Source: Lacunisphaera sp. (GTDB lineage Bacteria > Verrucomicrobiota > Verrucomicrobiia > Opitutales > Opitutaceae). From it: 64,000 nucleotides of DNA. The translations under genes were made by a program, and so were the position numbers. The stretch lies in the NCBI GenBank assembly GCA_029945445.1, contig JAQSCO010000009.1, positions 186,001 to 250,000 on the forward strand, written 5' to 3'. Below, piece after piece: positions 46,423 through 64,000 of the stretch. Each line of letters opens with the position of its first letter. The first letter of the stretch is position 1. The notes beneath the pieces are model-generated. The model searched no databases and was not told the origin of the DNA. It saw nothing but the letters and a program-made list of their open reading frames with translations.

Positions 46423-47487
46423 ATGAACCACTCCGCATTCCTCCCCCTAAGCCGGCCGGCCCTCGCCGTGGCGCTTTCGCTTGCGCTCCTCAGCCCCGCG
46501 TTCGCGCTCAAATACGCGGCGGTCGAGCACCATATCAAGGCCGACGCGGCGATCCCCGCCTGGAAACCCGGCCCCGTCGAGTCCGTGCCCGAGGAGGAAC
46601 TAAACCTCGTCGGCGCCGATATCATGGACGAGATCACGCTCGGCTGGGTGAAGATCTTCCGCCAGGCGTATCCGCGCCTCAGCGTCACCATGCAGGCACG
46701 CTCGTCCGGCAGCGGCGTGCCCGCGCTCACCGAGGGCACCGCGCACCTGGCGCCGGTCGGCCGCGAGGCGTTGCCCGCGGAGCACGACGGCTTCGTGAAG
46801 AAGTTCGGCTACGAGCCCTTCGCGATCAAGGTCGCCACCGGCAGCCTCGGTTCGCTCGGCAAGACCGCGACCAGCATCGTGCTCGTCGCGAAGAGCAACC
46901 CGATCAAGGGCCTCACGTTCAAGCAGCTCGACCAGATCTACTCGAAGTCGCACCACCGCGGCGGCGACGCCCTCACGACCTGGGGCCAGCTCGGCCTCAC
47001 CGGCGAGTGGGCCGACCGCCCGATCCATACCTACGGCCTCAAGCCGCCGAACGGCATCGAGCAGTTTGTGAAGTGGAAGGTGCTCCAGAATGGCGAATGG
47101 CGCGAGGGCATCCATAACGTCAAGGGGCAGGGCTTCACCCACGCGTTCACCGTCGCCTCAAACGACATGCACACGCAGCTCGGCGGTCTGACCTACGCGC
47201 TGCTGGCCAATGTCACGCCCGATGTCCGCGTCGTGCCGCTCGCGGAGAAGGACGGCGACCCGTTCATCGCGCCGACGCTCGACACGGTCTACCACCACAC
47301 CTATCCGCTCAGCCGCTACGTTTACATCTACGTCAACCGGCCTCCGGGCAAGCCGCTCGAGCCGAAGATCAAGGAGTTCCTCAAGGCCGTGCTCAGCCAG
47401 CAGGGCCAGGGGGTGGTCGCCGAGGAGGGCGTGTTCATGCCGCTCCTGCCCGAGGTCGTGCAGGAAGAACTCGCGAAACTCGAGTGA
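46423..47487 (+). CDS. PstS-like substrate-binding protein 1
   Basis: This 354-residue protein has a signal peptide without lipobox (ALAVALSLALLSPAFALK), so it is soluble in the periplasm or released. The PBP-like_2 fold signs are RSSGSGVPALTEGTAHLAPVGRE (the SGSG at 95-98 matches the phosphate loop of PstS proteins), KVATGS at 137-141, NPIKGLTFKQLDQIY and TTWGQLGLTGEWADRPIHTYG at 185-205. The C-terminus ends EELAKLE, a tail shared by most members of this array. It probably binds phosphate or a phosphate ester. The next gene begins 1 bp after its stop. No permease or ATPase gene follows. Confidence 0.87.
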   Translation: MNHSAFLPLSRPALAVALSLALLSPAFALKYAAVEHHIKADAAIPAWKPGPVESVPEEELNLVGADIMDEITLGWVKIFRQAYPRLSVTMQARSSGSGVPALTEGTAHLAPVGREALPAEHDGFVKKFGYEPFAIKVATGSLGSLGKTATSIVLVAKSNPIKGLTFKQLDQIYSKSHHRGGDALTTWGQLGLTGEWADRPIHTYGLKPPNGIEQFVKWKVLQNGEWREGIHNVKGQGFTHAFTVASNDMHTQLGGLTYALLANVTPDVRVVPLAEKDGDPFIAPTLDTVYHHTYPLSRYVYIYVNRPPGKPLEPKIKEFLKAVLSQQGQGVVAEEGVFMPLLPEVVQEELAKLE

Positions 47488-47488
47488 C

Positions 47489-49312
47489 GTGAATTTTAGG
47501 CCCAGTCTCGCAGCCCTTGCCCTCGTGGCGGGGGCTTCTTTTTTACCGGCGACCGAGGTGGCCTGCGCGAGCGCCGAGAGCATGGACGGGCTGATGTCGG
47601 CCTGGACCGCGGGCTTTTCCGCGCTCCACCCGGACACTCCGGCGCGCGTGACGTTGCGCGCAAAATTCTCGGCGGACTTTGCCGAGCCGCTCGCGCGCGG
47701 CGAGGTGCAGGTCGCGCCGTTCGCCCGCGAGCTGTTCGCTTCAGAACAGACGCGAATGACCCAGCTCGCCGGCGGGGCGCCGCGGCTCGTGCCGGTGGCC
47801 ACCGGCAGCCGGGCGACGAAGGGCGGCACGCATGCCATCGTGATCTTTGTGAACGAGAAGAATCCGCTCGCGCACCTGTCGCTCGCGCAGCTCCGCGAGA
47901 TATTCGCCCGCGACGGCCGTATCAGGACGTGGGGCCAGCTCGGCCTGAAAGGGGAGTGGGCGGATAGAAAAATCTCACTGCACGGCATGCGCGTGCGCCG
48001 TGAGACCGGCAATCCGCCCGGCATCGTCAATTTTCTAGAGTCGCGGTTGCTCGCTGGCCACACGTGGCGCGAGGACGTGCACGAATACACCGACGTGCCC
48101 GGTGGCGCGCAGTCGCTCGAGCTCATCACGCGGGCGGTCGCGGCCGACGAGGCGGCGATCGGCTACAGCGGCTTCGCTTACGCCGTGCCGGGCGTGAAAG
48201 CGCTCGCGCTCGGCGAGACCGACGCCGGCCCGTTCTTCGCCGGCACGGAGGTCGAGATCGCCCGGCGCGACTATCCGCTGGCCCGCACGATCTATCTCGC
48301 CGTCGGGCCATTGCCTGATGCGGCCACCAGTGAATTCATCCGCTACGTGCTGGGTCCGGCAGGACAGGGAGCCATTGCGACGGATGCGCAGAAGTTCTTT
48401 CCGCTCGCCGAATCAACCGTGCTCCCGGCGTACGAGCCACGGACGGTCGAAGTCCCGCGCAAGGCACGCTACGTCGGGGCCGACGGCGCGATCGCAGTCA
48501 TCGGCTACAACGACATGGCGGAGATGATGGCGGCGTTGAGTGCGCGGTTCGAGGCGCTGCATCCCGGCTTTAAGTTTGCCCTGACGCTCAAGGGCACCCG
48601 CACGGGTCCGCCGGCGCTGGCGCAGGGCACGTCGGCGTTCGCCCCGATGGGTGCGGAATTTTCGCCGACGGAGCTGGCCGACTACCGCGCGGCGACGGGC
48701 GGCGATCCGCTGCTCATCCGTGTCGCCCACTGCTCGTTGGATCCCAAGGCACTGAGCGGACCGCTGGCGGTCTTTGTGCATCAAGACAACCCGCTCGCGT
48801 CCCTGACGTTGGCGGAGGTCGCCGACATCTTCTCCGGTCGGGACACACGCGGCCTGCAGCCGGCCGGCCTTGAGTCTCAGCTGGCGCTTTCGCTCTGCCT
48901 GCGCGACAGGGTGCCCAGGCTCGGGACCTTTGCCGCGAACTTCAAGGGGTTCAGGCAATCGGCCGAGGTCGTGGGCTACGTCGCCGGGAATCCCCGGGCC
49001 ATCGGCTTTGCCGCCGCCATGCGGAGCCTGCCCGGGGTGAAGGTGCTCCCGCTGGCTGCGGTAGCCGGCCAGGCACCGGTCGCACTCACCGAGGCGAATC
49101 TTCGCGTTGGACGCTATCCCCTCGACCGGTTTTTGCTTATCCATGCCCGCCAGCCGCTGGAGCCCTGGGTCCGCGAATTCCTCGGCTTCGTCCTGTCGGC
49201 GGAGGGGCAGGGGATCATCACGCGCGGCACCCTCGGTTATCTGCCGCTCAACGCTGCCGAACAGTCGGCGGAGCGCGTTAAATTGTGGTTACCTGAACGA
49301 GAATTAAGGTAG
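47489..49312 (+). CDS. Double PstS-like binding protein (two fused PBP domains)
   Basis: The GTG at 47489, 1 bp after the previous stop, is chosen; it gives a signal peptide (NFRPSLAALALVAGASFL) and 607 residues. Domain 1 (about 25-305) has VPVATGS, IFVNEKNPLAHLSLAQLREIF and IRTWGQLGLKGEWADRKISLHG. Domain 2 (about 315-600) restarts with YVGADGAIAVIGYNDMAEMMAAL and LAVFVHQDNPLASLTLAEVADIF, but its TWGQLG block is degenerate (LQPAGLESQLALSLCL). One copy is therefore more diverged. Two sites on one chain could raise capacity or bind two partners. It is the last gene of operon 1; its 3' end holds the first half-site of the next promoter. Confidence 0.85.
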   Translation: MNFRPSLAALALVAGASFLPATEVACASAESMDGLMSAWTAGFSALHPDTPARVTLRAKFSADFAEPLARGEVQVAPFARELFASEQTRMTQLAGGAPRLVPVATGSRATKGGTHAIVIFVNEKNPLAHLSLAQLREIFARDGRIRTWGQLGLKGEWADRKISLHGMRVRRETGNPPGIVNFLESRLLAGHTWREDVHEYTDVPGGAQSLELITRAVAADEAAIGYSGFAYAVPGVKALALGETDAGPFFAGTEVEIARRDYPLARTIYLAVGPLPDAATSEFIRYVLGPAGQGAIATDAQKFFPLAESTVLPAYEPRTVEVPRKARYVGADGAIAVIGYNDMAEMMAALSARFEALHPGFKFALTLKGTRTGPPALAQGTSAFAPMGAEFSPTELADYRAATGGDPLLIRVAHCSLDPKALSGPLAVFVHQDNPLASLTLAEVADIFSGRDTRGLQPAGLESQLALSLCLRDRVPRLGTFAANFKGFRQSAEVVGYVAGNPRAIGFAAAMRSLPGVKVLPLAAVAGQAPVALTEANLRVGRYPLDRFLLIHARQPLEPWVREFLGFVLSAEGQGIITRGTLGYLPLNAAEQSAERVKLWLPERELR

Positions 49313-49346
49313 GCTTCAGCTTGGCTTTAGTGAATGTCCCTAGGGT
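49303..49346 (+). promoter_or_regulatory. Pho-box-like promoter P2 for TonB receptor
   Basis: ATTAAGG (49303), CTTCAGC (49314) and CTTTAGT (49325) are in 11-bp register with 4-bp spacers. TAGGGT at 49341-49346 follows after exactly 9 bp, identical in sequence and spacing to P1. The first half-site lies in the final codons of the preceding gene. Confidence 0.72.
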
Positions 49347-49408
49347 GGTTTTGTTATTTTAAGCTGTCGGCCCCCTTTGGTCACCTCACCCCAACCCTCG
49401 CTACCCGC

Positions 49409-51769
49409 ATGAACCCCCTCGTTACTCCGTCCGCCTCACACCCGCGCCTCGTGCCGCATGGCCTCATGGCGCTTTGCCTGCTGCTGCCCGTCACATCCCT
49501 CTTGGCGCAGTCCGCCGCGCCGGTCAAGTCCCTCGAGGAGGAGGCGACCGCGACCACCAGCGACAAGGTCATCCAGCTGGATACCTTCAAGGTGTCCGCG
49601 GCGATCGATACCTACCACCAGGCCACGTCCTCCATGGCCACCAAGCTCCCGATGGAGCTGAAGGAGATCCCGTCCTCGCTCTCGATCATGAACGCGACGG
49701 CGATCACCGACCGCAACGCCGTGACCTTGGTGGACGTGTTCGGCTACGTCGTGGGCGCCACGCAGTCGCAGGGCAACATCAACGGCTTTTCGTTCCGCGG
49801 CTTCCCCAACACCGGCTCCTACACGCAGAACATCCAGTTCGACGGTCTTATGGGCGCCACGCTCAAGAAGGCCGCGTCCAGCGCCGCCAACGTCGACAGC
49901 CTCGAGTTCCTCAAGGGCCCGAACGGCGTGCTCTACGGGCAGATGAATCCCGGCGGCTTGCTGAACATCGTCACCAAGAATCCCAAGGAAAAGAGGGAAT
50001 CATATCTCCGGTTGACCGCCGGCGTCTATGCCGGCGAGTTCACGAGCTTCGGCTCGAAGGTCACCAACACCCTCAGCTACGACACCACCGGGCCGGTCCC
50101 GGGCATCAAGCACCTGTTCTACCGCCTGGTCGCCGACGCGGGCAGCACCCCGAGTTCCCGCCCGGGCAACTGGGACCGCAATTACTCGGTCTATCCCTCG
50201 CTCTCCTACCGGTGGAGCACCGACACCTCCTTCACCATCAAGATGGAGAGCAGCCAGGATGTCCGCCGCCAGGACGACGGCGTGATCCCGATCTTCACCA
50301 GCGCGCCCATCTCGATCACCCAGGCCGGCGTGGTCACCACGAGCGCCGCCTTCGGCGAAAACGCGGCCTACTTCACCGCACCCCTGAACACGGTCTATAA
50401 CGATCACAAGGACACGGCCCGCGACTTCGGCCAGGCGATCTCCACGGTTTTCCACACCACGCTCGGCTCCGAGTGGCAGGTGCGGGTGCAGTCCCGCTCG
50501 GTCTGGCACCGGGACATCGTCCGCGAGTTCACGGTCAACAACGCGAACGTCTTTTCGCCCACGGCCAAGAACGCCACCCCGACCTCGTTGCTGCGCCGGC
50601 AATACAACAACGTCGATAACGGCCATCGCTACAATTACATCGACGCGAATGTTTTCCGGGCTTTCGAGACCGGCAAGGTCAAGCAGACGATCATCGCCGG
50701 CATCGGCGGCGGCAAGGAGTTCTTCGGCAACAAGCGCATCGCGTTCGGCCCGAACCAGACCCTCGCGCAGGCCGTCACGCTCATCAATCCGATCCTCGAT
50801 CTGGTGGTCGATTACCCGGTCGACGGGACGGGAGCAACGGACCAGGCCACGGACCAGACGGCACTGGGCGAGTATGTCTCCGACCAGATCAAGGTTGGCG
50901 ACCGCGTGCACGTCTCGCTCGGCGTCCGGCATGACCACCAGCTCGTCGAGGGCCTGGACAAGCTGAAACCCGCCACCACCACCTTCTCCAACACGCTCGA
51001 CGCCTACACCAAGCAGGGCGGCGTGGTGCTCGATGTCACCAGCCAGATCTCGACCTACGGCAGCTTCAGCCAGTCGATCAAGCCGCAGACGAACATCGCG
51101 TTCGATGTGAACGGCAATTCCAGCTTCCCGGCCGAGTCGGGCGAGCAGTATGAGCTCGGCCTGAAGTTCGAGACGCCCCAGAAGAACCTGAACATCGCCG
51201 TCGCGGCCTACCAGATCAAGCGCACCAATGTCGTGGTCGCGTCCGGCACCAACTTCACCGTGGCCACCGGCAGCGCGCAGGTTGGTCAGGCCATCTCCCG
51301 TCTCGACGGCGAGCAGACCAGCAAGGGCTACGAGCTCGAGGTGCAATACCAGCCGCTGCCGCACTGGCAGCTGCAGGGCGGCTTTGCCAGCAGCAAGGCA
51401 ACCATCACGGGCTCGACCAAGAACCCCGAGTCGGTCGGCTTTGACCTCGCCAACGCGCCCCGCCTGACCGGCAACTTCTGGACCCGCTATAATTTTCCCA
51501 CCGGCGCCCTGAAGGGCCTCGGCGTCGGCACCGGCATCGTCTACGTGGGCAAGGCCTGGGCCGGCGACCCGACCACCTCGGTCTATTACCGCCTGAAGGG
51601 CTGGACGCGCGTCGACTCCTCGATCTACTACAAGTGGAAGCGCTACGACTTCGCCCTGAACATCCAGAATCTCCTCGATAAGCGCTACATCTCCTCGGCG
51701 CAAAGCGCGCTGACCCTCAACATCGGCGAGCAGCGCAAGCTGACCTTCTCGGCCGGCCTGCGCTTCTGA
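49409..51769 (+). CDS. TonB-dependent outer-membrane receptor (Pho-type island)
   Basis: The ATG at 49409 (MNPLVTPSASHPRL) is preferred to an upstream in-frame ATG that lies between promoter and gene; it yields 786 residues with a signal peptide (LMALCLLLPVTSLLAQ). The TonB-box-like VIQLDTFKVSA precedes the plug (IPSSLSIMNATAITDRN; FSFRGFPNTGSYTQNIQFDG; VDSLEFLKGPNGVLYGQMNPGGLLNIVTK). The barrel ends in GLRF with a terminal Phe. It resembles siderophore-type receptors in size. A Pho-box-like promoter of its own and flanking PstS-like genes suggest that it imports a phosphate-containing compound. The ligand is not readable from sequence. Confidence 0.93.
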   Translation: MNPLVTPSASHPRLVPHGLMALCLLLPVTSLLAQSAAPVKSLEEEATATTSDKVIQLDTFKVSAAIDTYHQATSSMATKLPMELKEIPSSLSIMNATAITDRNAVTLVDVFGYVVGATQSQGNINGFSFRGFPNTGSYTQNIQFDGLMGATLKKAASSAANVDSLEFLKGPNGVLYGQMNPGGLLNIVTKNPKEKRESYLRLTAGVYAGEFTSFGSKVTNTLSYDTTGPVPGIKHLFYRLVADAGSTPSSRPGNWDRNYSVYPSLSYRWSTDTSFTIKMESSQDVRRQDDGVIPIFTSAPISITQAGVVTTSAAFGENAAYFTAPLNTVYNDHKDTARDFGQAISTVFHTTLGSEWQVRVQSRSVWHRDIVREFTVNNANVFSPTAKNATPTSLLRRQYNNVDNGHRYNYIDANVFRAFETGKVKQTIIAGIGGGKEFFGNKRIAFGPNQTLAQAVTLINPILDLVVDYPVDGTGATDQATDQTALGEYVSDQIKVGDRVHVSLGVRHDHQLVEGLDKLKPATTTFSNTLDAYTKQGGVVLDVTSQISTYGSFSQSIKPQTNIAFDVNGNSSFPAESGEQYELGLKFETPQKNLNIAVAAYQIKRTNVVVASGTNFTVATGSAQVGQAISRLDGEQTSKGYELEVQYQPLPHWQLQGGFASSKATITGSTKNPESVGFDLANAPRLTGNFWTRYNFPTGALKGLGVGTGIVYVGKAWAGDPTTSVYYRLKGWTRVDSSIYYKWKRYDFALNIQNLLDKRYISSAQSALTLNIGEQRKLTFSAGLRF

Positions 51770-51793
51770 GCCAAACCGGCTCGATTTCTCCTC

Positions 51794-51825
51794 ACGGCCG
51801 CCGGTTTCCGGCGGCCGTTTGCTTT
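51794..51825 (+). terminator. Intrinsic terminator after the island TonB receptor
   Basis: A perfect 11-bp stem (ACGGCCGCCGG with CCGGCGGCCGT) and TTT loop are followed by TTGCTTT. It lies 24 bp after the receptor stop and so isolates it as a single-gene unit. Confidence 0.88.
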
Positions 51826-51852
51826 GGCGGCGGAAGTTCCGGCTGAACGATT

Positions 51853-51896
51853 TTTCAGCGCGGCTTAAGGCGGGGTTCAGACAATTTTGGCATTCT
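51853..51896 (+). promoter_or_regulatory. Pho-box-like promoter P3
   Basis: TTTCAGC (51853), CTTAAGG (51864) and GTTCAGA (51875) follow an 11-bp period. CATTCT (51891-51896) lies 9 bp after the last half-site. One period upstream is GCTGAAC (51842), which is the reverse complement of the half-site form GTTCAGC; the same arrangement recurs at P5. It drives the gene at 51943. Confidence 0.68.
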
Positions 51897-51942
51897 GTTC
51901 GGGTTGCTCCTCTCTCCGTGCGGCCTCGGGCCATTCACCACC

Positions 51943-53043
51943 ATGAAACTACCCTCCCGTATTCTCGTCCTGGCGCTGCTCGCCGGCGGCCTTTCCCTGC
52001 AGGCATTCGCGGCCGCGCCCGAGCGGATCAAAATCCGGCTGGCCCCGATGCCGGGCATCGGCCACCTCGTGCCCGAGCTGGCGGTCGGCCTTGGCTACTT
52101 TGAGCAGGAGGGCATCGACGTCGAGATGGTCAACGTCATGAACTATCGCGACGAGGACTTCTACTCCACCGAGCTGCTCAATGACGGCACGATCGACGCC
52201 GAGATCTGCTGGTATCAGCGCGTCGTTTTCGGCATCGGCAACGACCAGCCCGCGCGCGCCGTCTTCCTCATCGAGAACAGCCCGCACCTGACGATCTCCG
52301 TGGCCAACCGGCTGCGTGACCAGGTCAGGACCGCCGCCGATTTCAAGGGCAAGGTCATCGCCGACTCGGCGGGGTTTTCGACCCGGCGTTACCTGACCGA
52401 CGTCATGATCGCCCAGGCCGGTCTGCCGCCGGGCAGCTACACCCCGGCGGCCACGGAGTTGTCCTCCAAGTTGCCGCTGCTGACCCAGGCGCTGCAAGAC
52501 GGCAAGGTCGACATCGTCGCGTGCATGGAGCCCATGACTTCCGGCCTGATGGCCACCAAGCTGGTCACCCCGCTCTATGAGCTGACGACCGCCGAGGGCA
52601 CCCGCAAGGCGCTCGGCGAGATCTGGCCCGCGCGCTGCCTCTACGTCGCCCCGCGCTACATCGAGGCTCATCCTGACCGGGTGCAGCGGCTCGTGAACGT
52701 GTTTGCGCGCACGCTGCGCTATCTCAACACGCACACCGCGCAGGAGATCGTCGCGAAGTTGCCCGCCGGGTATTTCGCGCCGGACATCAGCAACGACCTC
52801 TGGGCGGACTACAAGAAGGGCAAGACCGATGAGATCGCGAAGGTGCTGCCGTCGCTGACCAACGGCGACTACACCATCCCGCCGGCGGCGGCCAGGCTCG
52901 CCTGCGATGTGCTCGCCCACACCGGGTTCGACGAAAGCCACGAGGGCCAATATCGCCGGACGGCCTCGCAAAGCGGCAAGGTCCGGCCCGAAGCGACCTA
53001 TGACAACCGCTTCGCCGAGGAAGCGGTGAAACACCTCAAGTGA
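51943..53043 (+). CDS. NMT1/THI5-like (SsuA-type) substrate-binding protein
   Basis: The start at MKLPSRILVLALLAGGLSLQAFA gives a signal peptide and 366 residues. The NMT1/SsuA-type fold is shown by LVPELAVGLGYFEQEGIDVEMVNV, DGTIDAEICWYQRVVFG, VRTAADFKGKVIADSAG and LTQALQDGKVDIVACMEPMT. The segment LVNVFARTLRYLNTHTAQEI is nearly repeated in the fusion gene at 61566 (LVNAFVRTMRFVNTHTAEQI), so the two are close relatives. Family members bind sulfonates, nitrate, thiamine precursors or phosphonate-like ligands for ABC import. Control by a Pho-box-like site suggests a phosphorus-containing ligand. No permease gene is nearby. Confidence 0.88.
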   Translation: MKLPSRILVLALLAGGLSLQAFAAAPERIKIRLAPMPGIGHLVPELAVGLGYFEQEGIDVEMVNVMNYRDEDFYSTELLNDGTIDAEICWYQRVVFGIGNDQPARAVFLIENSPHLTISVANRLRDQVRTAADFKGKVIADSAGFSTRRYLTDVMIAQAGLPPGSYTPAATELSSKLPLLTQALQDGKVDIVACMEPMTSGLMATKLVTPLYELTTAEGTRKALGEIWPARCLYVAPRYIEAHPDRVQRLVNVFARTLRYLNTHTAQEIVAKLPAGYFAPDISNDLWADYKKGKTDEIAKVLPSLTNGDYTIPPAAARLACDVLAHTGFDESHEGQYRRTASQSGKVRPEATYDNRFAEEAVKHLK

Positions 53044-53069
53044 ACCGCCTTGGCGTGAGGTGAATTAAA

Positions 53070-53113
53070 TTTAAGAGGCGGTTCAGCGTCCGTTAATGTC
53101 CTTTTGCGAATCT
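53070..53113 (+). promoter_or_regulatory. Pho-box-like promoter P4
   Basis: TTTAAGA (53070), GTTCAGC (53081) and GTTAATG (53092) are in 11-bp register. GAATCT (53108-53113) lies 9 bp downstream, the same spacing as P1-P3. It precedes the three-gene operon starting at 53173. Confidence 0.7.
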
Positions 53114-53172: not shown

Positions 53173-54924
53173 ATGAATCCAGTCACCCCGCTTTCCGTCC
53201 GGCGCCTCGTCCAACTGCTGGCCTTCTGCGCTGCCGCCCTCGTGGCGGCCGCTGCCCCGACCAACGTCATTATCCGCGTGCCCACCGGGACCGCGTCGCC
53301 GGCCGGGCTCCCCGAGCTGCTCTCGAAGTGGCGCCAGTCGGGCCAGGTTTCCAACGTGCTCTGCCTCACCCAGGGCAAGCCCGAGAAGGCCGAGCGCACC
53401 GCCCAGTTCGCCTCGCTTGTCGTGCTCGAGTTCCTCAGCGAGGGTTCCTACCAGGCTTGGCAAAAGGACGCGGCCCCGGCGTTGCCCGCTGGCCTGATCG
53501 TGCACCAGGCCGACGCCCTTGCGCACGGCGAGCTGTCGCCGCGCGATTCCAACCGCTCCGTCTTCGTCGTCAACGCCTACAAGCCCACGGTGCCCGCGGC
53601 GCGCTTCCGCGAATACGTCGCCGGCTACGTGCATCCGCTCTACGAGGCCATGCGCGGCACCAAGCACCTTGTGCGTTACACTGCCTACCTTGAGCACGGT
53701 GACATCGGCCAGGCCATGGCCTTCAATGTCCTCGAATACCGCGACCCCGTCGCCTTCGCCGCGATGGGCACGCTCAAGGGCGGTCTCCGGGAAAAACTCA
53801 CCGCCACGACACCGTCCTATGCGGAGTTCGACAAGATCAAGGACACGCTGCGCGTCGACGGCTTCGGCACCTTTGCCACCTACGCCGAGCTGCCCCCGCC
53901 GGACCTGAGCTACCTGCCATCCTACAAGCCCGAGGTCAAAATCAGCGGCGCCCTGCGCATCGTCGGCAGCGAACTGAAGAACGCCACCGACCAGCTCGCG
54001 GAGGGATTCAAGCACTTCCATCCCGAGGCGCGCGTCTCGGTCAACATCATGACCAGCAGCGAGGGTGGCATTGCCGGCCTCTACTGCGGCATCTCCGACG
54101 TGGCCCCGATGGGCGATGACGCGAAGATCACCGACCAGATGCCGTTCTTCAACACCTTCGGCTACATGCCGACGGAACTCTCCGTGGCGACCGGCGGCTC
54201 CGAGAAGCGCGGCTCGCTTTGGGCCTGGGCCATCGTGGTCAACAAGGACAACCCGCTCGAGGAAATCTCGGTCGAGGAACTCGAGCGCGTCTTCGGCTCC
54301 GAGCGCACCGGCGGCTGGGAGTTGGTGAGCAACAATTATCTCTATACGGCCAAGTTTGCCCGCGCCGCCGACCGGAACATCCGCACCTGGGACCAACTCG
54401 GCCTCAAGGGCGAGTTCGCCGGCAAGGAAATCGGGACCTTTGGCTACACCGCGCCCGGCTTCGAAATCTATTTCGAGCGGAATTGGTTCCACTGGGTCCA
54501 CAAGTGGAACGGCAACTTCAAGGAATATGTCGAGGCCAAGCAGACCACCCCCGATGCCGCCGGTGCGGCCGTGGCCAGCGAGCGGCCGCTCGAGGATCTC
54601 TCGACCAACAAGTTCGCCATCGGCATCGCCGGCCTGATGCACGTGAAGGATTTCCCGAACGTCAAGGTGCTGCGCATTTCCCGGCAGAAAGGCGGCCCGG
54701 CCGTCGCACTCACGCCCGACAACGTGGCCAACCGCACTTATCCGCTCATTCGCGACGCCTTCTTCTACGTGAACAAGGCGCCGGGCAAGCCGCTCGACCC
54801 GAAGGTGCGCGAGTTCATGCGCTTCGTGCTGAGCCGCGAGGGCCAGGAGATCATGGCGCGCGTCGGCTACTACTATCCGCTCAACGCCGAGTATCTCGCC
54901 GAGCAGCTGAAGAAGCTGGATTGA
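53173..54924 (+). CDS. PstS-like binding protein fused to N-terminal alpha/beta-barrel-like domains
   Basis: The ATG at 53173 (MNPVTPLSVRRLVQLLAFC) gives a signal peptide and 583 residues. Residues about 30-215 look like two ferredoxin-like dimeric alpha/beta-barrel units. The first has NVIIRVPTGT and SLVVLEFLSEGSYQAW; the second has VFVVNAYKPTVPAARFREYV and MAFNVLEYRDPVAFAAM. Residues about 235-583 are PstS-like: ISGALRIVGSELKNATDQL, ATGGSEKRGSLWAWAIVVNKDNPL, IRTWDQLGLKGEFAGKEIGTFG, and tail AEQLKKLD. The N-terminal domain may bind or degrade a small ligand such as haem or an aromatic, or aid dimerisation; I cannot tell which. First gene of operon 4. Confidence 0.8.
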   Translation: MNPVTPLSVRRLVQLLAFCAAALVAAAAPTNVIIRVPTGTASPAGLPELLSKWRQSGQVSNVLCLTQGKPEKAERTAQFASLVVLEFLSEGSYQAWQKDAAPALPAGLIVHQADALAHGELSPRDSNRSVFVVNAYKPTVPAARFREYVAGYVHPLYEAMRGTKHLVRYTAYLEHGDIGQAMAFNVLEYRDPVAFAAMGTLKGGLREKLTATTPSYAEFDKIKDTLRVDGFGTFATYAELPPPDLSYLPSYKPEVKISGALRIVGSELKNATDQLAEGFKHFHPEARVSVNIMTSSEGGIAGLYCGISDVAPMGDDAKITDQMPFFNTFGYMPTELSVATGGSEKRGSLWAWAIVVNKDNPLEEISVEELERVFGSERTGGWELVSNNYLYTAKFARAADRNIRTWDQLGLKGEFAGKEIGTFGYTAPGFEIYFERNWFHWVHKWNGNFKEYVEAKQTTPDAAGAAVASERPLEDLSTNKFAIGIAGLMHVKDFPNVKVLRISRQKGGPAVALTPDNVANRTYPLIRDAFFYVNKAPGKPLDPKVREFMRFVLSREGQEIMARVGYYYPLNAEYLAEQLKKLD

Positions 54925-54942
54925 TTTGTTGCCGCCGGCGTC

Positions 54943-57114: not shown

Positions 57115-58125
57115 ATGAAGCCCGTCCGCTGTTTGTCTTTCGCGCTCCTGGCGCTTGCGGCGCTCGCTTCCGGGCGTGGTCTGGCCGCGGATCTCCCGCA
57201 CTACCAGCCGGGCGTGAAGCTCACGGGAGACATGCGCATCACCTGCGAGACTTCCGCCGAGCCCTTGATGAAAATCTGGGTGGAACGCTTCGCGAAACTC
57301 CAGCCGGGCCTGGAGATCATCGCCAAGGGGACCTCGCCCCTCGCGTCGGTTCCGATGGTGGCGTCGGGCGCCTATGAATTGGGGTTTCCGGCGCGCGAGC
57401 TCTGGGCCTACGAGGTGGAGAATTTCCGCCGGATCCGCGGCTATGACCCGACCGTCGTGATGGTCGGCCTCGGCGCGCACCGGACGGCGGGCCTGACGCC
57501 GGCGCTCGGGGTCTATGTGAATGCGAGCAATCCCATCGAGCGGATCACCCTCGACCAGCTCGATGCGATCTATTCCGCGGAGCGCCGCCGCGGTGGCACA
57601 AAGGAAATCAAGACCTGGGGCGACCTGGGGCTGACTGGGGAATGGGCCCGCCGGCCGATCGAGGCCTACACCCATCGTTTGCCGAACGGCATCGACTATT
57701 TTATCCAGCTGATCGTGACCAAGGGCGCCGGCTTTGGGAAGTCGGTGATCGAACTGCCGATGCGCCGCGGCAAGCTCGGGCCCGATGAGGTCATTGCCAA
57801 CGCGGTCGTGCAAAATCCCGCGGCCATCGGTTTCGGCTGCCTCGGCAATGTGATGCCCGGGATGAAGACCATCGCGCTCGCGGAGAATTCCCGTGGTCCC
57901 TACTACGCCGGCACGCTCGAAGAGGTGAAGAGCATGGCTTACCCGCTGTCGCGCCCGATCTACATGGTCGTCGACCGCGCACCGGGCAGGCCGCTGGAGC
58001 CGAAGCTGCAGGAGTTCCTCGCGTTTGTCCTCAGCCAGGAAGGCCAGGAGGCCATCGCGGCCTCTGAGGGCTGGCTGCCGCTGCCGTCCGGCACCGCCGC
58101 CGCCGAGCGTCGGAAGCTGCCATAG
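57115..58125 (+). CDS. PstS-like substrate-binding protein, short type
   Basis: The start is at MKPVRCLSFALLALAALASGRGLAA (336 residues), a signal peptide; an upstream ATG at 57073 lies too near the promoter. Motifs: LPHYQPGVKLTGDMRITCETS, LGVYVNASNPIERITLDQLDAIYSAERRRGG and IKTWGDLGLTGEWARRPIEAY. The SGSG-like loop is changed to GTSPLASVPM, and the ATGS segment to GLGAHRTAGL, so ligand contacts may differ from protein 1. The tail is AAERRKLP. First gene of operon 5. Confidence 0.85.
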   Translation: MKPVRCLSFALLALAALASGRGLAADLPHYQPGVKLTGDMRITCETSAEPLMKIWVERFAKLQPGLEIIAKGTSPLASVPMVASGAYELGFPARELWAYEVENFRRIRGYDPTVVMVGLGAHRTAGLTPALGVYVNASNPIERITLDQLDAIYSAERRRGGTKEIKTWGDLGLTGEWARRPIEAYTHRLPNGIDYFIQLIVTKGAGFGKSVIELPMRRGKLGPDEVIANAVVQNPAAIGFGCLGNVMPGMKTIALAENSRGPYYAGTLEEVKSMAYPLSRPIYMVVDRAPGRPLEPKLQEFLAFVLSQEGQEAIAASEGWLPLPSGTAAAERRKLP

Positions 58126-58173
58126 TCGCCAAGCCGGCAAATTCTACCCCAACCCCCGACCGGAGAAACCCAG

Positions 58174-59352
58174 ATGAATCAGCGCCTCCCCAAACTCACG
58201 GCTCGCGCGGTCCTCGCGTTCGCGCTCCTCGTTCCCGCGCTGCGCGCGCAAGCTCCCCAGTCCGCCGACCAGGTCAATGCGCTGAAGGCGCAGGCCGAGC
58301 ACTTCCGCATCGTGCGCGAGCGCGGCGAGAAGGCGTATTATCAGCCGCGGTTCGACCTGAGCGCGCTGCCGCACTACCAGCCGCAGAAGGTGCTGGCCGG
58401 CTGGCTCAAGATTCATGGCAACAACTACATCGCGGACGGCCCCCTCGGCGACTACTGGCAGAAGGCCTTCGCCAAGTTTCAGCCGGGGGTAAAGATTTCC
58501 TATTATCTGCCAACCTCGGCGGGATCCTTCGGTGCCCTCAACTACAACCAGGCGGACCTGATCTTTTCACACAAGCCGGGCTTCTACGATCTGCTCGCCT
58601 ACGAGCGCATGAAGAACTGCGACCCGGTCGAGATCACGGCCGTGACCGGTTCCTTCGATGTCGGCGGCTGGGAAAATTCCTTCACGATCCTCGTCAACGG
58701 CGAGAATCCGCTCAAGGGCATCACGCTGGAGCAGTTGGACGGCGTGTTCGGCGCCGAGCGCGACGGAGGCTGGGTCGGCACCAACTGGCGCCCCGATCTC
58801 GCGCGCGGTCCCGAGAAAAACGTCCGCACTTGGGGCCAGCTCGGCCTGACTGGCGAGTGGGCCGACAAACCCATCCACGTCTACGGCTTCAGCCTCCGCT
58901 ACAACACCGCCACGGCGTTCTGCGACTTGGTGCTCAAGAGCAGCGACAAGTGGAACGAGAAGATCCACGCCTACGGCAATTACATGGCGCCCGATGGCAA
59001 GCGCTACGTCGAGGCCGACCAGATCACCGAGGCCATCGGCAGGGACAAATACGCGATCGGCTTCAACCGCTACCGCGGCGAGCGGCCGAACGTGCGCCGC
59101 ATCGCGGTGGGCGAGGGGAGCGGTCCGCTGGTTGAGCACAACATCGACAACATCCAGAACGGCAGCTACCCGCTCCTGACCCAAGTCTACTTCTACACGA
59201 CAGTGCTCCCCGGCCAGAAGATGGATCCGATGGTGAAGGAGTTTCTGCGCTTTATCCTGAGCCAGGAAGGCCAGGCGGAGGTCCAGCGCGACGGCAAATA
59301 CCTGCCGCTCACCGCCGAGATGGTCCGCGAGCAACTCAAGAAACTCGAATGA
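58174..59352 (+). CDS. PstS-like substrate-binding protein, long type
   Basis: This 392-residue protein has a signal peptide (AVLAFALLVPALRAQAP) and a good GGAGAAA ribosome site 8-14 bp upstream of ATG. An N-terminal extension (NALKAQAEHFRIVRERGEKAYY) precedes the FDLSALPHYQPQKVLAG entry. WLKIHGNNYIADGPLGDYWQ, VTGSFDVGGW and ITLEQLDGVFGAERDGGW follow. A long insert (TNWRPDLARGPEK) leads to VRTWGQLGLTGEWADKPIHVYG, and the tail is REQLKKLE. The insert defines the long subtype shared by the genes at 59349, 60468 and 61566. Probable periplasmic binding of a phosphorus compound. Confidence 0.87.
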   Translation: MNQRLPKLTARAVLAFALLVPALRAQAPQSADQVNALKAQAEHFRIVRERGEKAYYQPRFDLSALPHYQPQKVLAGWLKIHGNNYIADGPLGDYWQKAFAKFQPGVKISYYLPTSAGSFGALNYNQADLIFSHKPGFYDLLAYERMKNCDPVEITAVTGSFDVGGWENSFTILVNGENPLKGITLEQLDGVFGAERDGGWVGTNWRPDLARGPEKNVRTWGQLGLTGEWADKPIHVYGFSLRYNTATAFCDLVLKSSDKWNEKIHAYGNYMAPDGKRYVEADQITEAIGRDKYAIGFNRYRGERPNVRRIAVGEGSGPLVEHNIDNIQNGSYPLLTQVYFYTTVLPGQKMDPMVKEFLRFILSQEGQAEVQRDGKYLPLTAEMVREQLKKLE

Positions 59353-60458
59353 AAACCAGCCTCGGATCCGCCCTGACGGGCGTGCTGCTCACGGCGACCG
59401 TCGCCCTTGCCGCCGACGGCCCGGCCTATCAGCCGGCGCATTACGACCTCAGCGCCTTGCCGCCGTATGTGAAGGCGGCGCGTGTCACCGGCGTCCTGCG
59501 CATCTACGGCACTCCGCTCGAGGATCTCGTGGGCAAATGGGCCAACGCCTTCCGCGGCTACCATGGCCAGGTCCGCCTGAACGCCTACCTCATCAACACC
59601 TCGCAGGCCTTCGCCGGCCTCGTGACAGGGTCAGCCGACATCGGCCTCATGGGGCACCGGCAGTGGCGCAACGGTTTCCAGGCCTTCGCGGCGCAGTTCG
59701 GCTACGCCCCGCTCGAGATCAAGTTTGCGACCGGTTCCTACGACGACCCGCAGGGCACGACGCCCGGGCTGATGTTCATCGTGAACAAGCACAACCCGCT
59801 GGCCGGTCTCACGCTCGGGCAGCTCGACGGCATCTACGCTGCGCAGCGCACCGGCGGCTGGGTGAACGGCCAGTGGTCGACGGCGTCCGCGCGCGGCCCG
59901 GAGAAGGACATCCGCACCTGGGGCCAGCTCGGGCTGACCGGCGAGTGGGCGGACAAGCCCATCCATCTCTACGGCTCCGATGTCACGCTCAGCAACTGGG
60001 CCGACCTGCTGGAGCGCGAGGCTTTCCAGGGCGGCACCAAGTGGAATCCCGCGCTCCACGAGGCCCCGCGCGCCGACATCGGCACGAAGGCCAAGGGCAA
60101 GACCAAGGACCAGCTCATCTTGGAGGCGGTCGAGCAGGACCCGGCGGCGATCGGTTTCATCTTCCAGCGCGTGATCAACGCCAACCACGGCGACGTGCGC
60201 GTGCTGCCGCTCGCCGCGAAGGCCGGCGGTCGGTTTGTCACGCCGGGCGCGCAGACGTTCTTCGACGCCAGCTACCCGCTGCATAACGGCGCGTATATCT
60301 ACCTCAACCGTGTGCCCGGTCAGCCGCTGGGCGTCCGGGAAAAGGAATTTGCGCGCTTCCTCCTGAGCCGCGAAGGCCAGCAGATCATCGCGGACAGCCG
60401 CCTGTTCATCCCGCTCACTGTCCAGCAGGTCATGGTTGAGCTGGCGAAACTTGAATAA
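59349..60458 (+). CDS. PstS-like substrate-binding protein, long type
   Basis: This 369-residue protein has a signal peptide (LGSALTGVLLTATVALAAD). Motifs: YDLSALPPYVKAARVTGVLRIYG, FATGSYDDPQGTTPGLMFIVNKHNPLAG, LTLGQLDGIYAAQRTGGW and IRTWGQLGLTGEWADKPIHLYG. The tail is VELAKLE. A Lys-rich insert (DIGTKAKGKTKDQL) is found in the C-terminal lobe. It overlaps the preceding gene by 4 bp (ATGA). Same role as neighbours assumed. Confidence 0.87.
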   Translation: MKTSLGSALTGVLLTATVALAADGPAYQPAHYDLSALPPYVKAARVTGVLRIYGTPLEDLVGKWANAFRGYHGQVRLNAYLINTSQAFAGLVTGSADIGLMGHRQWRNGFQAFAAQFGYAPLEIKFATGSYDDPQGTTPGLMFIVNKHNPLAGLTLGQLDGIYAAQRTGGWVNGQWSTASARGPEKDIRTWGQLGLTGEWADKPIHLYGSDVTLSNWADLLEREAFQGGTKWNPALHEAPRADIGTKAKGKTKDQLILEAVEQDPAAIGFIFQRVINANHGDVRVLPLAAKAGGRFVTPGAQTFFDASYPLHNGAYIYLNRVPGQPLGVREKEFARFLLSREGQQIIADSRLFIPLTVQQVMVELAKLE

Positions 60459-60467
60459 CTTCTCGCG

Positions 60468-61553
60468 ATGAATTTCCCCAAATCCATTTTGCAGGTCCTC
60501 CTGACCTCCATCGCAGCTTGTCTCGGCGCGGGCGGTGAACTGCCGGACTACAAGCCCTCGATGCACGTCAGCGGCGTGCTGCGCAGCTGCGGCAACCCGC
60601 AGATGGCCGCGCTGCTGCAGCGCTGGCAGGCCGGTTTCAAGCGCGCGCAGCCCGACGTCCAGTTCGCGGACGACCTCAGGAGTAGCGCGTCGGGCATGTT
60701 TGGCCTCGATATGCGCACCGCCGACCTCGCCCTGATGGGGCGGGCGATTTTTCCTTACGAGCGTTACGGCGTCTATGAGCGCTCATGGGTTTATCCGGCG
60801 CAGATCGAGGTGGCCACCGGCAGCGCCACGGCCCTGCACAAATCGCCGGCCTATGCGATTTTTGTCCACAAGGACAACCCGCTCGCGCAGCTGACGGTGA
60901 GGCAGCTCGAGGGCATCTTCGGGGCCGAGCGTGGCGGCGGTTGGAATGCACTGACCTGGGACACGAGCGTCGCCCGCACGCCGAAGGACGATCTTCGCAC
61001 CTGGGGCCAGCTGGGCCTGAAAGGGGAGTGGGCCACCAAGCCGATCCATCCGTATGCCCAGGCCGGCCTCGGCGCGGGCGCGATCACTTATTTCCAGAGC
61101 CGCGTCTTCGGCGGCGCCGAAACCTGGAACGAGGGTTTGCGCGAATACGCGGACCGGCAGCAGATGCTTGCCGATCTCAGCCGTGATCCGCTCGGCATCG
61201 CCTACGCGCCGCTCGCCTATGCGACCGCGGACGTGAAGGCGCTCCCGCTCGCCGAGACTGCGGCCGGGCCCTTCGTGAGGCTCACCAAGGCCAGTGTCGC
61301 GGACCGTACCTATCCGCTGCACCGGCCGGTCTACATCTACTACACGATGGACAACCGGAACACGGAGCTGATGCCGACGCTCGGCGATCCGCGCGTGAAG
61401 GAATTTCTCCGCTATATCCTAAGCAGGCAGGGCCAGCAGGACATCGCCGCGGAAGGCAGCTACCTGCCGCTGCCGTTGGCGGCCATACAGGTGCAGCGAC
61501 AGAAACTCGATTCAACCGAGATCCCGCTCGAGCACCGTTTCATGGAAGACTGA
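60468..61553 (+). CDS. PstS-like substrate-binding protein, long type
   Basis: This 361-residue protein has a signal peptide (ILQVLLTSIAACLGAGG). Motifs: LPDYKPSMHVSGVLRSCGN, DDLRSSASGMFGLDMRTADLALMGR, EVATGSATALHKSPAYAIFVHKDNPL, then LRTWGQLGLKGEWATKPIHPYA. The end is unusual: after the normal IQVQRQKLD it continues with STEIPLEHRFMED, so the C-terminus is about 13 residues longer than its relatives. It begins 9 bp after the previous gene and ends 12 bp before the fusion gene. Confidence 0.86.
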   Translation: MNFPKSILQVLLTSIAACLGAGGELPDYKPSMHVSGVLRSCGNPQMAALLQRWQAGFKRAQPDVQFADDLRSSASGMFGLDMRTADLALMGRAIFPYERYGVYERSWVYPAQIEVATGSATALHKSPAYAIFVHKDNPLAQLTVRQLEGIFGAERGGGWNALTWDTSVARTPKDDLRTWGQLGLKGEWATKPIHPYAQAGLGAGAITYFQSRVFGGAETWNEGLREYADRQQMLADLSRDPLGIAYAPLAYATADVKALPLAETAAGPFVRLTKASVADRTYPLHRPVYIYYTMDNRNTELMPTLGDPRVKEFLRYILSRQGQQDIAAEGSYLPLPLAAIQVQRQKLDSTEIPLEHRFMED

Positions 61554-61565
61554 CCGTACCACCCT

Positions 61566-63740
61566 ATGCGCCTCACCACTGCCTTCGCCTCTCTATCGCT
61601 ATCGTGCCTTCTGCTCGCTGCAGGGAGATCCACGCTCCATGCCGCGGACCAGCCGGTCCAGGTCCGCCTCGCCACCGATGACGAGATCTTCGTGGCCGAA
61701 CTCGGCCTGGCGCTCGGCTATTTTGCCGAGGCCGGCGTCGAGCTCGTGCCCGTCCGGGTGGATGCCTTCGAGAAGGAAGACTATCTGCTGCAGGCCCCGC
61801 TGAACCGCGGCCAGATCGACGCCTGCATCCACTGGTTCCAGCACGCGGTCATTGGCGCCCGCCACAATCTGCCGGTCACCGGCGTGATGGTCTTCAACGA
61901 TGCTCCCGGCATGACGGTGATGGTCGCGAATCGTGTGAAGGACCAGGTCCGGAGCGTGGCGGACTTCAAGGGCCGCCGGGTTGCGCAGGGCGCCGGTTAT
62001 GGCACCAAGAGTGTGATCACAAACTACCTCGCGACGCGCGCCGGGCTGCCCCTGGGCAGCTACACGCCGGTGTTCCTGGAAAATGCCGGCCGGCAGGAGG
62101 CCGTGATCAAGGGACTGCACGACGGCGCGGTCGATGTGATGACGTTCCAGGATCCGGTCACCACCGCGCTGCTGGAGACGAACCTGGTCACCCCGCTCCA
62201 CGACCTGACCACGAAGGAATCGACCACGAAGGTCCTCGGTGCCCCCTGGCTCTCGCAGTGCCTGCTCATGGCGCCGAAGTTCGTCGCCGCGCACCCCGCG
62301 ACCGTGCAGCGCCTCGTGAACGCCTTCGTGCGCACTATGCGCTTCGTGAATACCCACACGGCGGAACAGATCGCGGCCAAGCTACCCGACCGCTATTTCG
62401 CCGGGAAGGACAAGGCGGCGGAGACAAAATTGATCGGGCAGACGCTCCGGACCTATGCGCAAGGTGACTACGGCTTCGATCCGTTGGCCGTGAAACTCGA
62501 GACGGACGTGCTGATGGCGTCGCATTTTGACGACAGTATCGAGGGCAAGTGGCGCCGCGAGGGGGAGAATCCCCGGGTTGATCCTGCGCAGCTCTACACG
62601 AACGAATTTGTCGGCAGGGCCATGAAGGAGTTCGCGGCCGAGCCCGCCAACGCCGGGGTCAGCATCTGGACGCAGAACGTGACCGGCTTCCGCAAGGAGC
62701 ACGGCGCCGTCGGCGGCTACACGAAGAAGTGGGACCTCAGCGACCTGCCGCATTATGTGCCGCAGCAGCAGTTGACCGGCACGCTCCGGATCTGGGGCAA
62801 CAACTACATCAAGGACGGATACCTCGGGGCATACTGGCAGGAGGCCTTCAAGAAGTTCCAGCCGGGTCTCATGATCGAATACAATCTCCCGACGACCGGC
62901 ATTGGCATCCCGTCGCTCTCCGCGCGGGCGTCCGACCTCGCAATGAGCCGGAAGGCGATCCTCATGGACCTGTTGACCTTTGAGCAGGTGTTTCATTATC
63001 CGGTCACGGAAATCTCGGCGGTGACCGGTTCGTATGACGTCTATGGCTGGTCGCCGGCCTTCATCATCGTCGTGCACAAGGACAACCCGCTCACGCAAAT
63101 CAGCCTGAAGCAGCTGGACGGCGTTTTCAGTGGCGCGCGCAACGGCGGCTACGCCGGCAGCGTCTGGCACACGGAGTATCCCTATGCGCGCGGGCCGGAG
63201 GAAAATATCCGCACGTGGGGCCAGCTCGGCCTGACCGGCGAGTGGGCGAACCAGCCGATCCACACCGGCGGACAGTCCTTGCGCGGCAACCAGACCACGC
63301 AGTTCTCCGACATCGTGACCCGTGGCAGCGACCAGTTTGTCGAGGGCTACCAGTCCTTCGCGAACTACATCACGCACGACGGCAAGATCAACAGCTGGAG
63401 CCTGCAGGCGCAGCACGCGATCGCGGCGGACAGGCTGTCCCTGTTCTACGTTTCACCGCTGACGCTTAGCCCGGACATGAAGGAGCTCGCGGTGCAGGCC
63501 TACGACGGCGGCCCCTATGTGCAGCGATCGCTCGAGACCATCCACGACCGGACTTATCCGCTCTACGGACAGTATTTTTTCTACCTGAACCGCGAGCCGG
63601 GCAAACCGGTCGACCCGAAGGTGGCGGAGTTCATGCGCTTCATCCTCAGCCAGGAAGGGCAGGAGTGTGTGCAGCGCGAGGGCCGCTATATTCCGCTCAC
63701 CGTCGACATCGTGCGGGCGCAGCTCAAGAAACTGGAATGA
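61566..63740 (+). CDS. NMT1-type plus PstS-type fused double binding protein
   Basis: This 724-residue protein has a signal peptide (LSLSCLLLAAGRSTLHAAD). Residues about 28-330 are NMT1/THI5-like: FVAELGLALGYFAEAGVELVPV, RGQIDACIHWFQHAVIG, VRSVADFKGRRVAQGAG and LVNAFVRTMRFVNTHTAEQI. Residues about 388-724 are long-type PstS-like: DLSDLPHYVPQQQLTGTLRI, VTGSYDVYGW, VVHKDNPLTQISLKQLDGVF, IRTWGQLGLTGEWANQPIH, tail RAQLKKLE. Two unrelated binding folds on one chain are rare. The fusion joins the two protein types that occur separately at 51943 and elsewhere in this island, suggesting that they handle the same or paired ligands. Confidence 0.87.
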   Translation: MRLTTAFASLSLSCLLLAAGRSTLHAADQPVQVRLATDDEIFVAELGLALGYFAEAGVELVPVRVDAFEKEDYLLQAPLNRGQIDACIHWFQHAVIGARHNLPVTGVMVFNDAPGMTVMVANRVKDQVRSVADFKGRRVAQGAGYGTKSVITNYLATRAGLPLGSYTPVFLENAGRQEAVIKGLHDGAVDVMTFQDPVTTALLETNLVTPLHDLTTKESTTKVLGAPWLSQCLLMAPKFVAAHPATVQRLVNAFVRTMRFVNTHTAEQIAAKLPDRYFAGKDKAAETKLIGQTLRTYAQGDYGFDPLAVKLETDVLMASHFDDSIEGKWRREGENPRVDPAQLYTNEFVGRAMKEFAAEPANAGVSIWTQNVTGFRKEHGAVGGYTKKWDLSDLPHYVPQQQLTGTLRIWGNNYIKDGYLGAYWQEAFKKFQPGLMIEYNLPTTGIGIPSLSARASDLAMSRKAILMDLLTFEQVFHYPVTEISAVTGSYDVYGWSPAFIIVVHKDNPLTQISLKQLDGVFSGARNGGYAGSVWHTEYPYARGPEENIRTWGQLGLTGEWANQPIHTGGQSLRGNQTTQFSDIVTRGSDQFVEGYQSFANYITHDGKINSWSLQAQHAIAADRLSLFYVSPLTLSPDMKELAVQAYDGGPYVQRSLETIHDRTYPLYGQYFFYLNREPGKPVDPKVAEFMRFILSQEGQECVQREGRYIPLTVDIVRAQLKKLE

Positions 63741-63787
63741 GTGTCTGCCGTCGTCATGATGCCCTTATTCCCCAACCCCTTACTCCC

Positions 63788-64000
63788 ATGAAAAACTATC
63801 TCTGCCGATACGTGATCCTTGCGGCGGTCCTGTCGCTGTCCTCCTCCGCCGAGGAGAAGGTCTCCACCGGTCTCGCCATGCAGGAGGCCCGCTCCGAGAA
63901 CCTCAAGATCAAGGGTCCGAAGACCTATTACGCGGCCGACAAATTCGACCTCGGCGACCTGCCGGCCTACGCGCCGAAGGAGAAGGTCACCGGCACGATT
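63788..64000 (+). CDS. PstS-like substrate-binding protein, long type, 5' part only
   Basis: The first 71 codons are visible, and the gene runs off the right edge. A signal peptide (MKNYLCRYVILAAVLSLSSSA) is followed by an extension (RSENLKIKGPKTYY) and the array signature FDLGDLPAYAPKEKVTGTI, matching the entry of the protein at 58174. It starts 47 bp after the fusion gene with no new Pho-box repeats between, so operon 5 continues beyond this window. Confidence 0.8.
   Translation, partial: MKNYLCRYVILAAVLSLSSSAEEKVSTGLAMQEARSENLKIKGPKTYYAADKFDLGDLPAYAPKEKVTGTI

Follow-up and report, generated by a model that had tools for sequence, protein, structure and literature searches.

A long array of diverged PstS-like binding proteins without an ABC transporter partner in Lacunisphaera sp., and its possible role in carboxylate acquisition

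The window analysed here, 64,000 nucleotides of contig C9 of a Lacunisphaera sp. genome (G000; 4.17 Mb in 66 contigs; C9:186001-250000), carries a large part of an array of genes for exported proteins related to PstS, the binding protein of the Pst phosphate transporter. Judged from their sequences, the array proteins are diverged PstS relatives stripped of most phosphate-loop residues. They fall into orthogroups that recur, partly in the same order, in several phyla; neither a PstC/PstA-type permease nor an ATP-binding cassette (ABC) ATPase was found near them on C9; and TonB receptors and di- or tricarboxylate symporters stand among their neighbours. We propose tentatively, and at somewhat less than an even chance, that phosphate binders have here been refitted as a TonB-linked acquisition set for carboxylates (perhaps metal-carboxylates) together with secondary symporters. 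The identity of the ligands and their hand-over to the symporters are the weakest steps of this proposal.

The PF12849 profile found 20 matches in the whole genome: 18 within C9:232600-264563, one canonical PstS on contig C6, and one weak orphan on contig C55. The 18 array domains cover ca. 32 kb, and 17 of them exceed the PF12849 cut-off of 27 bits, the remaining one scoring 23.5. The window holds 11 domains in 10 genes (genes were called with a home-made codon score, so that start positions are approximate), the other 7 lying past position 64000, up to ca. 15 kb beyond the window. A preliminary description of this DNA had recognised consecutive exported paralogs with shared features (TWGQLGLTGEWADKPI, ATGS, DNPL and KKLE-type), which are all seen in our alignment, and had called them PstS-like, as the profile scan bears out. 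Its eleven genes are reached only by counting an NMT1-type gene, its twelve domains come to 11, and its bounds of 46423-64000 missed both the continuation to the right and the upstream GAF/PAS-like and YncE-like genes, which probably belong to the array. In an 18-domain alignment, identity to the first domain lies at 23-49% for the other 17, so the array is neither a product of chance nor a duplication made in assembly.

No partner of the ABC type was found. The permease family of PstC and PstA (PF00528) has 8 matches in the genome and none on C9 (other permease families were not searched), and the ABC ATPase family (PF00005) has no match in C9:186001-283149, from the start of the window to the end of the contig. 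The preliminary description had noted this lack within the window and had pointed to the right flank as the place where pstCAB might lie; C9 runs on for ca. 18 kb beyond the last PstS-like gene, and a gene reading downstream together with the two scans ruled out pstCAB directly past position 64000. As binders without pstC, pstA and pstB, the array genes fall outside the Pst phosphate ABC transporters. The pstSCAB-phoU operon of the genome lies on contig C6, as read from its open reading frames and from the PF12849, PF00528 and PF00005 matches there.

A profile of the 18 domains has as its best PDB matches the Pseudomonas aeruginosa PstS entries 4omb (E 9.8e-88) and 4pqj (E 4.1e-86). The structure predicted by AlphaFold for the protein encoded at 54943 (predicted local distance difference test, pLDDT, 94.1; 56 sequences) again matches 4omb best (Foldseek E 1.2e-33; VIA Z 28.9, root-mean-square deviation (rmsd) 6.0, 297 aligned), and its 30 best VIA structure matches are all PstS/PhoX-type chains. 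All 18 domains match the TIGR02136 PstS family at E ≤ 0.01 (best E 6.6e-32); the one member with a score at hand reaches 68.7 bits, below the cut-off of 206.6. The array proteins thus have the fold, the TWGDLGLTGDWAKKP block and the overall length in common with P. aeruginosa PstS and PF12849. They differ from it in lacking pstCAB, in occurring as many paralogs per cassette, in a TGSxDxxG insertion, and in the loss, in most of them, of the GRNSxSGTY loop and the Asp of DALA.

These differences were read from one alignment of 432 domains, of which 424 are array-type and 8 reference PstS. Five references have pst genes as neighbours (L003, L032-L035), one is the P. aeruginosa protein, and two come from L014 and L015, whose neighbours were unchecked. 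Overlapping loci of one genome, domains of at most 100 bits, those shorter than 230 residues and those identical after trimming were left out; the overlapping locus pairs L038/L076 and L059/L102 were retained with identical domains removed, genome counts being unaffected. The same filters excluded the weak orphan of C55, a lone PstS-like protein (L004:6239-7183, G000:C55:70238-71182) that has no insertion and whose gene lies between those of an NtrC-type regulator and a valyl-tRNA synthetase, as read from the open reading frames. The insertion adjoins the hinge strand that leads to FVHxDNP; its marker, G at column 117, is present in 395 of the 424 array-type domains, and columns 118-124 are gapped in all eight references. 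In the phosphate loop, the S, G and T of columns 188-190 occur in 8/8 references and at frequencies of 0.18, 0.41 and 0.19 in array-type domains. SG[TS] is kept in 31/424, mostly OG13-like domains (orthogroup 13, see below) and all with the insertion. Phosphate contacts given for Xanthomonas citri PhoX are Ser34, Ser62, Asp80, Arg159, Gly164, Thr165 and Asn201 (PMC5439949); by alignment, motif columns for phosphate contact that all 8 references conserve are altered in most array-type domains. Some members, for example of orthogroup 13, may hold an oxyanion still.

Orthogroups (OG) were taken from one FastTree run, with support of at least 0.7, at most 1.6 domains per genome and at least 5 genomes. 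This rule gave 26 groups, 25 array-type and one reference-type, with 62/424 domains outside any orthogroup. Among the 44 array genomes, OG20 occurs in 29, OG14 in 28, OG4, OG7 and OG13 in 24 each, and OG19 in 23; isolates or closed genomes with OG14 are G012, N. kunmingense, P. piptadeniae, Pelomonas KK5, S. gilva and Streptomyces scopuliridis. Gene order is partly conserved. OG18 is followed by OG20 in 13 genomes (shuffled mean 3.1, maximum 8), OG13 by OG14 in 12 (shuffled maximum 8) and OG11 by OG15 in 9 (shuffled maximum 5), none of the three being reversed in any genome, and 25 ordered pairs recur in at least 4 genomes, where shuffling gives 10 on average and 17 at most. Recent tandem amplification was considered and rejected, given the 23-49% identities and the orthogroups shared across phyla.

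The orthogroups differ more at columns where a ligand would bind than elsewhere. We compared 42 columns lining the PstS cleft, picked from motifs and not by superposition, with 256 others. Information between orthogroups is 1.42 bits at the pocket columns and 0.91 elsewhere (p 1.2e-7; 22 orthogroups, 346 domains), within-group entropy of variable columns is 1.49 in the pocket and 1.84 elsewhere (p 2.7e-8), and pocket columns make up 12 of the 30 most group-specific columns, 4.2 being expected; since columns are not independent, the p values serve as a guide only. Pockets that are kept within orthogroups and differ between them point to pockets that are in use and unlike one another.

Arrays were found in 4 of 57 relatives (G000, G004, G012 and G029), the rest having 0-3 matches that are mostly reference-type or weaker. 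Across 387 genomes of the phylum, array-type scores occurred in G000 and G012 only, at most 5 candidates being scored per genome. At E ≤ 1e-10, G029 (STD2_236) has 88 matches in 3.0 Mb and G012 has 39, fragments and PstS proper included. In STD2_236 (contigs C1 and C24), a few of the 88 PstS-like matches are fragmentary or carry in-frame stops; copies in this genome may be decaying as well. The locus scan covered the best 80 of 401, and its named loci (metagenome labels may be wrong) belong to Verrucomicrobiota, Alpha-, Beta- and Gammaproteobacteria, Acidobacteriota, Eremiobacterota, Actinomycetota and others. This sporadic presence, together with the shared order, suggests horizontal transfer.

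Of immediate interest for function are the membrane proteins encoded next to the arrays. We surveyed, name-blind, every called polytopic protein encoded up to 3 kb from a PstS-like gene, and 13 of 29 were of di- or tricarboxylate symporter type: DctA (6), 2HCT (4), CitMHS (2) and DASS (1). Control DNA, 40 stretches of 20 kb (800 kb) from G000 and G012, held 57 polytopic proteins with one of carboxylate type (13/32, three C6 pst-locus proteins included, versus 1/57; Fisher p 2.7e-6); its 643 genes gave no PepSY_TM, YncE, GAFs (see below) or PstS-like match and 5 TonB receptors. Symporter genes and arrays lie on the same strand, with spacing down to 29 bp. The CitMHS protein of S. gilva scores 605 bits (cut-off 260) and that of L095, cut by the locus end, 207; the DASS protein of L095 scores 295 (cut-off 199). 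The six near-array DctA proteins were named by clustering with a scanned L002 protein, and cluster names generally (DctA, RND, formylglycine-generating-enzyme-like, MFS) were given from the scan of one or a few members or from reading the sequence. Since 2HCT, DASS and CitMHS may be remote relatives of one another, the four families are not to be counted as four independent inventions. Other carboxylate genes in array loci are those for methylisocitrate lyase (prpB) and 2-methylcitrate dehydratase (prpD) in L070, for isocitrate lyase and malate synthase A in L082, for an incomplete TcuC in L040 (385 versus a cut-off of 445), and for TctC in L073. A DcuS/DcuR-like pair next to the Streptomyces copies, scoring under cut-offs, points the same way.

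A second set of partners points to the outer membrane and the periplasm. Over the 44 array genomes, where contigs are often cut, TonB receptors accompany the array in 22, YncE-like propellers in 16, a secreted GAF/PAS-like domain (GAFs) in 15 and NMT1 in 11. The preliminary description had spoken of a set of diverged binders without an ABC partner, which holds, and a TonB receptor does lie inside the array. In E. coli, too, the TonB receptor gene yncD is found beside the propeller gene yncE; no PstS-like array is known at that locus. GAFs has no family in Pfam or NCBIfam. Its predicted structure (pLDDT 89.3) aligns to a GAF domain (VIA Z 10.7, rmsd 3.5, 124 aligned), and Foldseek also lists DcuS/CitA sensor domains, the sequence match to DcuS being weak (E ~0.5). 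Among the 57 relatives the domain occurs in exactly the four array genomes (Fisher 2.5e-6). Two GAFs domains stand ahead of the TonB receptor in Paraburkholderia PGU19 (plasmid, L109) and in a Janthinobacterium metagenome-assembled genome (L086, contig-cut), one stands ahead of the YncE propeller in L056, and on the Arthrobacter plasmid pHiyo8-1 PstS-like genes adjoin propeller pieces. Genes for PepSY_TM proteins lie within 2.5 kb of the array in 10/44 genomes and the cytochrome b561 type in 3; the PGU19 PepSY protein includes an oxidoreductase NAD-binding domain (PF00175, 28.2 bits, cut-off 22) and falls just under the cut-off of the ferric-reductase model PF08030 (21.1 versus 22.2).

The proposed acquisition set would work as follows. 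PstS-fold binders, closest to Pseudomonas-type PstS, would have been refitted for di- and tricarboxylates such as citrate, isocitrate, 2-methylcitrate, malate and the like, perhaps as metal complexes. The siderophore-type TonB receptor would import a ligand or its metal complex across the outer membrane, and in the periplasm every exported binder would keep a ligand of its own. Membrane proteins of the PepSY_TM or cytochrome b561 kind may provide a redox step, possibly ferric reduction, and the acid would be handed to a secondary symporter (2HCT, DctA, CitMHS or DASS) with no ABC pump, while the secreted GAF/PAS-like domain and adjacent two-component systems would signal the ligand. In its boldest and more doubtful form the proposal describes a so far undescribed, horizontally spread uptake machine, in which a TonB receptor, in some cases tipped with GAF-like domains, would feed several PstS binders for different carboxylates or metal-carboxylates, and these would load elevator-type symporters directly.

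Several observations weigh against a carboxylate acquisition set. Near-array members served to build the symporter models, the control DNA was drawn from two genomes and the test set from many, and genomes are not independent of one another. A symporter is among the polytopic neighbours in only 10/44 array genomes (many contigs being cut), and near and far positions inside the same loci are not separable (13/32 versus 2/11, p 0.28, small numbers), one of the two far matches, at the end of L016, probably being the G012 2HCT gene, which has a PstS-like gene of the next locus ca. 2 kb away. DctA-type genes occur in 49/57 relatives, so that their presence in a whole genome is uninformative; 2HCT occurs in 3/4 array genomes and also in 2/53 relatives without an array. 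The commonest pair, OG20 followed by OG19 in 20 genomes, is reversed in 4 (shuffled mean 5.9, maximum 15), and OG4 and OG20 have no preferred order (6 versus 6 genomes). In 3 of 9 STD2_236 loci viewed, a single copy stands among unrelated genes, which a strict relay would not need. Finally, the array's TonB receptor belongs to the siderophore type, and the one consensus used for Fur-like sites matched twice, both times at 31.1 kb and never inside the array.

The type of receptor leads to another reading, which we consider unlikely: TonB-linked uptake of ferric chelates, with binders for different siderophores or chelates, and carboxylate genes as partners since some chelators are hydroxycarboxylates. 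The window receptor narrowly exceeds the cut-off of the siderophore-receptor model TIGR01783 (226.3 versus 223.5), PepSY_TM and cytochrome b561 proteins are neighbours, and FecR and more TonB receptors lie at the right edge. The siderophore-type receptor, the nearby FecR and the PepSY-type membrane protein recall TonB iron uptake of the FecA/FecR and FpvA types; the array differs from these in its many PstS-like binders and, for some receptors, in the N-terminal GAFs domains. The missing Fur-like site tells against ferric-chelate uptake as well, DctA, 2HCT and the glyoxylate and methylcitrate enzymes are atypical as siderophore genes, and no ABC ATPase was found near the array (siderophore permease families were not searched).

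It is distinctly unlikely, in our view, that the proteins are orphan sensory binders, reporting many ligands to two-component systems with no need of a transporter. Two-component genes occur in array loci of 13/44 genomes, within 2.5 kb in 10, and in Streptomyces scopuliridis a DcuS/DcuR-like pair, under cut-offs, adjoins three PstS-like genes (L090:5764-8120). The single copies in STD2_236 would fit sensing, and the same role has been proposed for orphan TctC proteins (PMC5994714). Against this, the TonB receptor and symporters so often present suggest uptake, two-component genes are not seen in many arrays, and the pair on C9 has heavy-metal CopRS-type models as its nearest relatives, with scores under cut-offs.

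The preliminary description had favoured phosphate itself, either as various phosphate esters or as a periplasmic store. PstS ancestry, the 31 domains with SG[TS] and a Porin_O_P gene divergent from the right-hand copies speak for it. Yet the loop residues are lost in most domains, the genome has its separate pst operon, and the neighbours are carboxylate genes. Because SG[TS] is mostly lost, the hinge carries an insertion and tri- and dicarboxylate genes adjoin, phosphate, phosphate esters and a phosphate store find no support, and we hold such a role to be quite improbable. The suggestion that the binders differ in ligand is supported in kind, pocket positions being group-specific. Very improbable, finally, is a structural or surface assembly in which the paralogs form subunits of a heteromeric layer or fibre with idle clefts, as might be read from the conserved, partly ordered set, its double and fused domains and the N-terminal [LIV]Px[YWF] motif of 183/424 array-type domains (a motif that P. 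aeruginosa PstS has too), for the enrichment of pocket columns among the most group-specific ones is unexpected for unused clefts.

On the forward strand, genes separated by short gaps or overlapping form a single run from window position 44817 to C9:258187 (L001:10187). It starts with the 173-amino-acid GAFs protein (44817..45338) and an exported YncE-like beta-propeller (45363..46400), a distant relative by NF052280 YncE (E 8.4e-15; 54.4 bits versus a cut-off of 400). There follow a PstS-like gene of OG24 (46423..47487; PF12849 59.7 bits), a double PstS-like gene of OG23 and OG22 (47489..49312; GTG start candidate; two PF12849 stretches, 90.5 bits), the siderophore-type TonB receptor with plug and barrel (49409..51769), and an NMT1-type binding protein without an ABC partner (51943..53043; PF09084 37.9 bits, cut-off 20.5). 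The next gene (53173..54924) fuses an N-terminal domain of ca. 220 amino acids to a PstS-like domain of OG14. This N-terminal domain is present in 20/29 OG14 members and had no useful match in a PDB sequence search; a 307-amino-acid protein near further TonB receptors (L002:3324-4247) is related to it (E 1.1e-5). PstS-like genes then continue with OG20 (54943..56013), OG19 (56010..57032, overlapping the preceding gene), one outside all orthogroups (57115..58125; 51.2 bits), OG7 (58174..59352), OG11 (59349..60458, again overlapping) and OG15 (60468..61553). The gene at 61566..63740 fuses a second NMT1 domain to a PstS-like domain of OG6 (PF09084 40.6, PF12849 43.1 bits), and 63788..64000 is the start of an OG4 gene (L001:1788-2975). 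The lipobox that the preliminary description had found lacking is indeed absent from 9 of the 10 window PstS-like proteins; the protein at 60468 has a lipobox-like IAAC at residues 15-18. By eye, the Streptomyces scopuliridis PstS-like genes show two lipobox-like starts and one twin-arginine-like start.

Beyond the window the run ends with an SBP_bac_3 binder, the second GAFs copy (L001:5845-6327), its last PstS-like gene, a PepSY_TM protein (L001:7581-8729) and the 2HCT symporter (L001:8781-10187), which ends at C9:258187. Past this point lie the two-component pair, three opposite-strand PstS-like domains, the Porin_O_P gene, FecR and further TonB receptors. The Porin_O_P gene (phosphate-selective porin family; L001:16949-18142), divergent from those three domains, has a clustered relative inside the L095 array. 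Other neighbours were seen elsewhere: three SBP_bac_5 binders precede two PstS-like genes in Actinopolymorpha alba (L100:4219-8714); exported formylglycine-generating-enzyme-like proteins, named from sequence, lie in or beside the arrays of three genomes (L018, L023, L047); and RND efflux pump genes, also named in this way, follow the array in three (L060, L077, L089).

Orphan expansions of binding proteins are already known, and the PstS-like array is a further variant of them. In Bordetella and Rhodoplanes, TctC/Bug expansions can run to hundreds of binders, most of them orphans, with kinases and transporters of various kinds nearby; 434 TctC genes are reported for the 8.2 Mb Rhodoplanes genome (compare the 88 PstS-like matches in 3.0 Mb of STD2_236), which even holds a nine-gene array, and the authors took the Rhodoplanes set to be a lineage-specific expansion (PMC5994714). 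The PstS-like proteins belong to another family (of 10 window proteins scanned, 7 being PstS-like, none matched PF03401 at E ≤ 0.01) and add orthogroups common to several phyla, partly conserved order and a TonB receptor. A binder beside a symporter is seen in TAXI-GltS of Bordetella pertussis, where a secondary symporter replaces the usual membrane partner; its authors liken GltS to VcINDY (DASS) and CitS (2HCT), two families that also lie beside PstS-like arrays (PMC12344293). That system has one TAXI binder and one transporter, whereas the array has many binders of PstS fold, a TonB receptor and a putative coupling to the adjacent symporters. Nothing on point for PstS-like arrays with TonB receptors was found in the literature searched, most subscription journals lying outside its coverage.

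In public records such proteins are named 'phosphate-binding' or 'substrate-binding domain-containing'; for this cross-phylum PstS-like subfamily the phosphate label is probably wrong. GAFs, as carried by TonB receptors, are a candidate new domain for ligands or signalling. Should the uptake machine exist in its boldest form, it would be a multi-ligand counterpart of an ABC system, with many binders per symporter. The cassette lends itself to study as a set of natural pockets derived from one phosphate site, and as a test case for binding proteins paired with secondary symporters.

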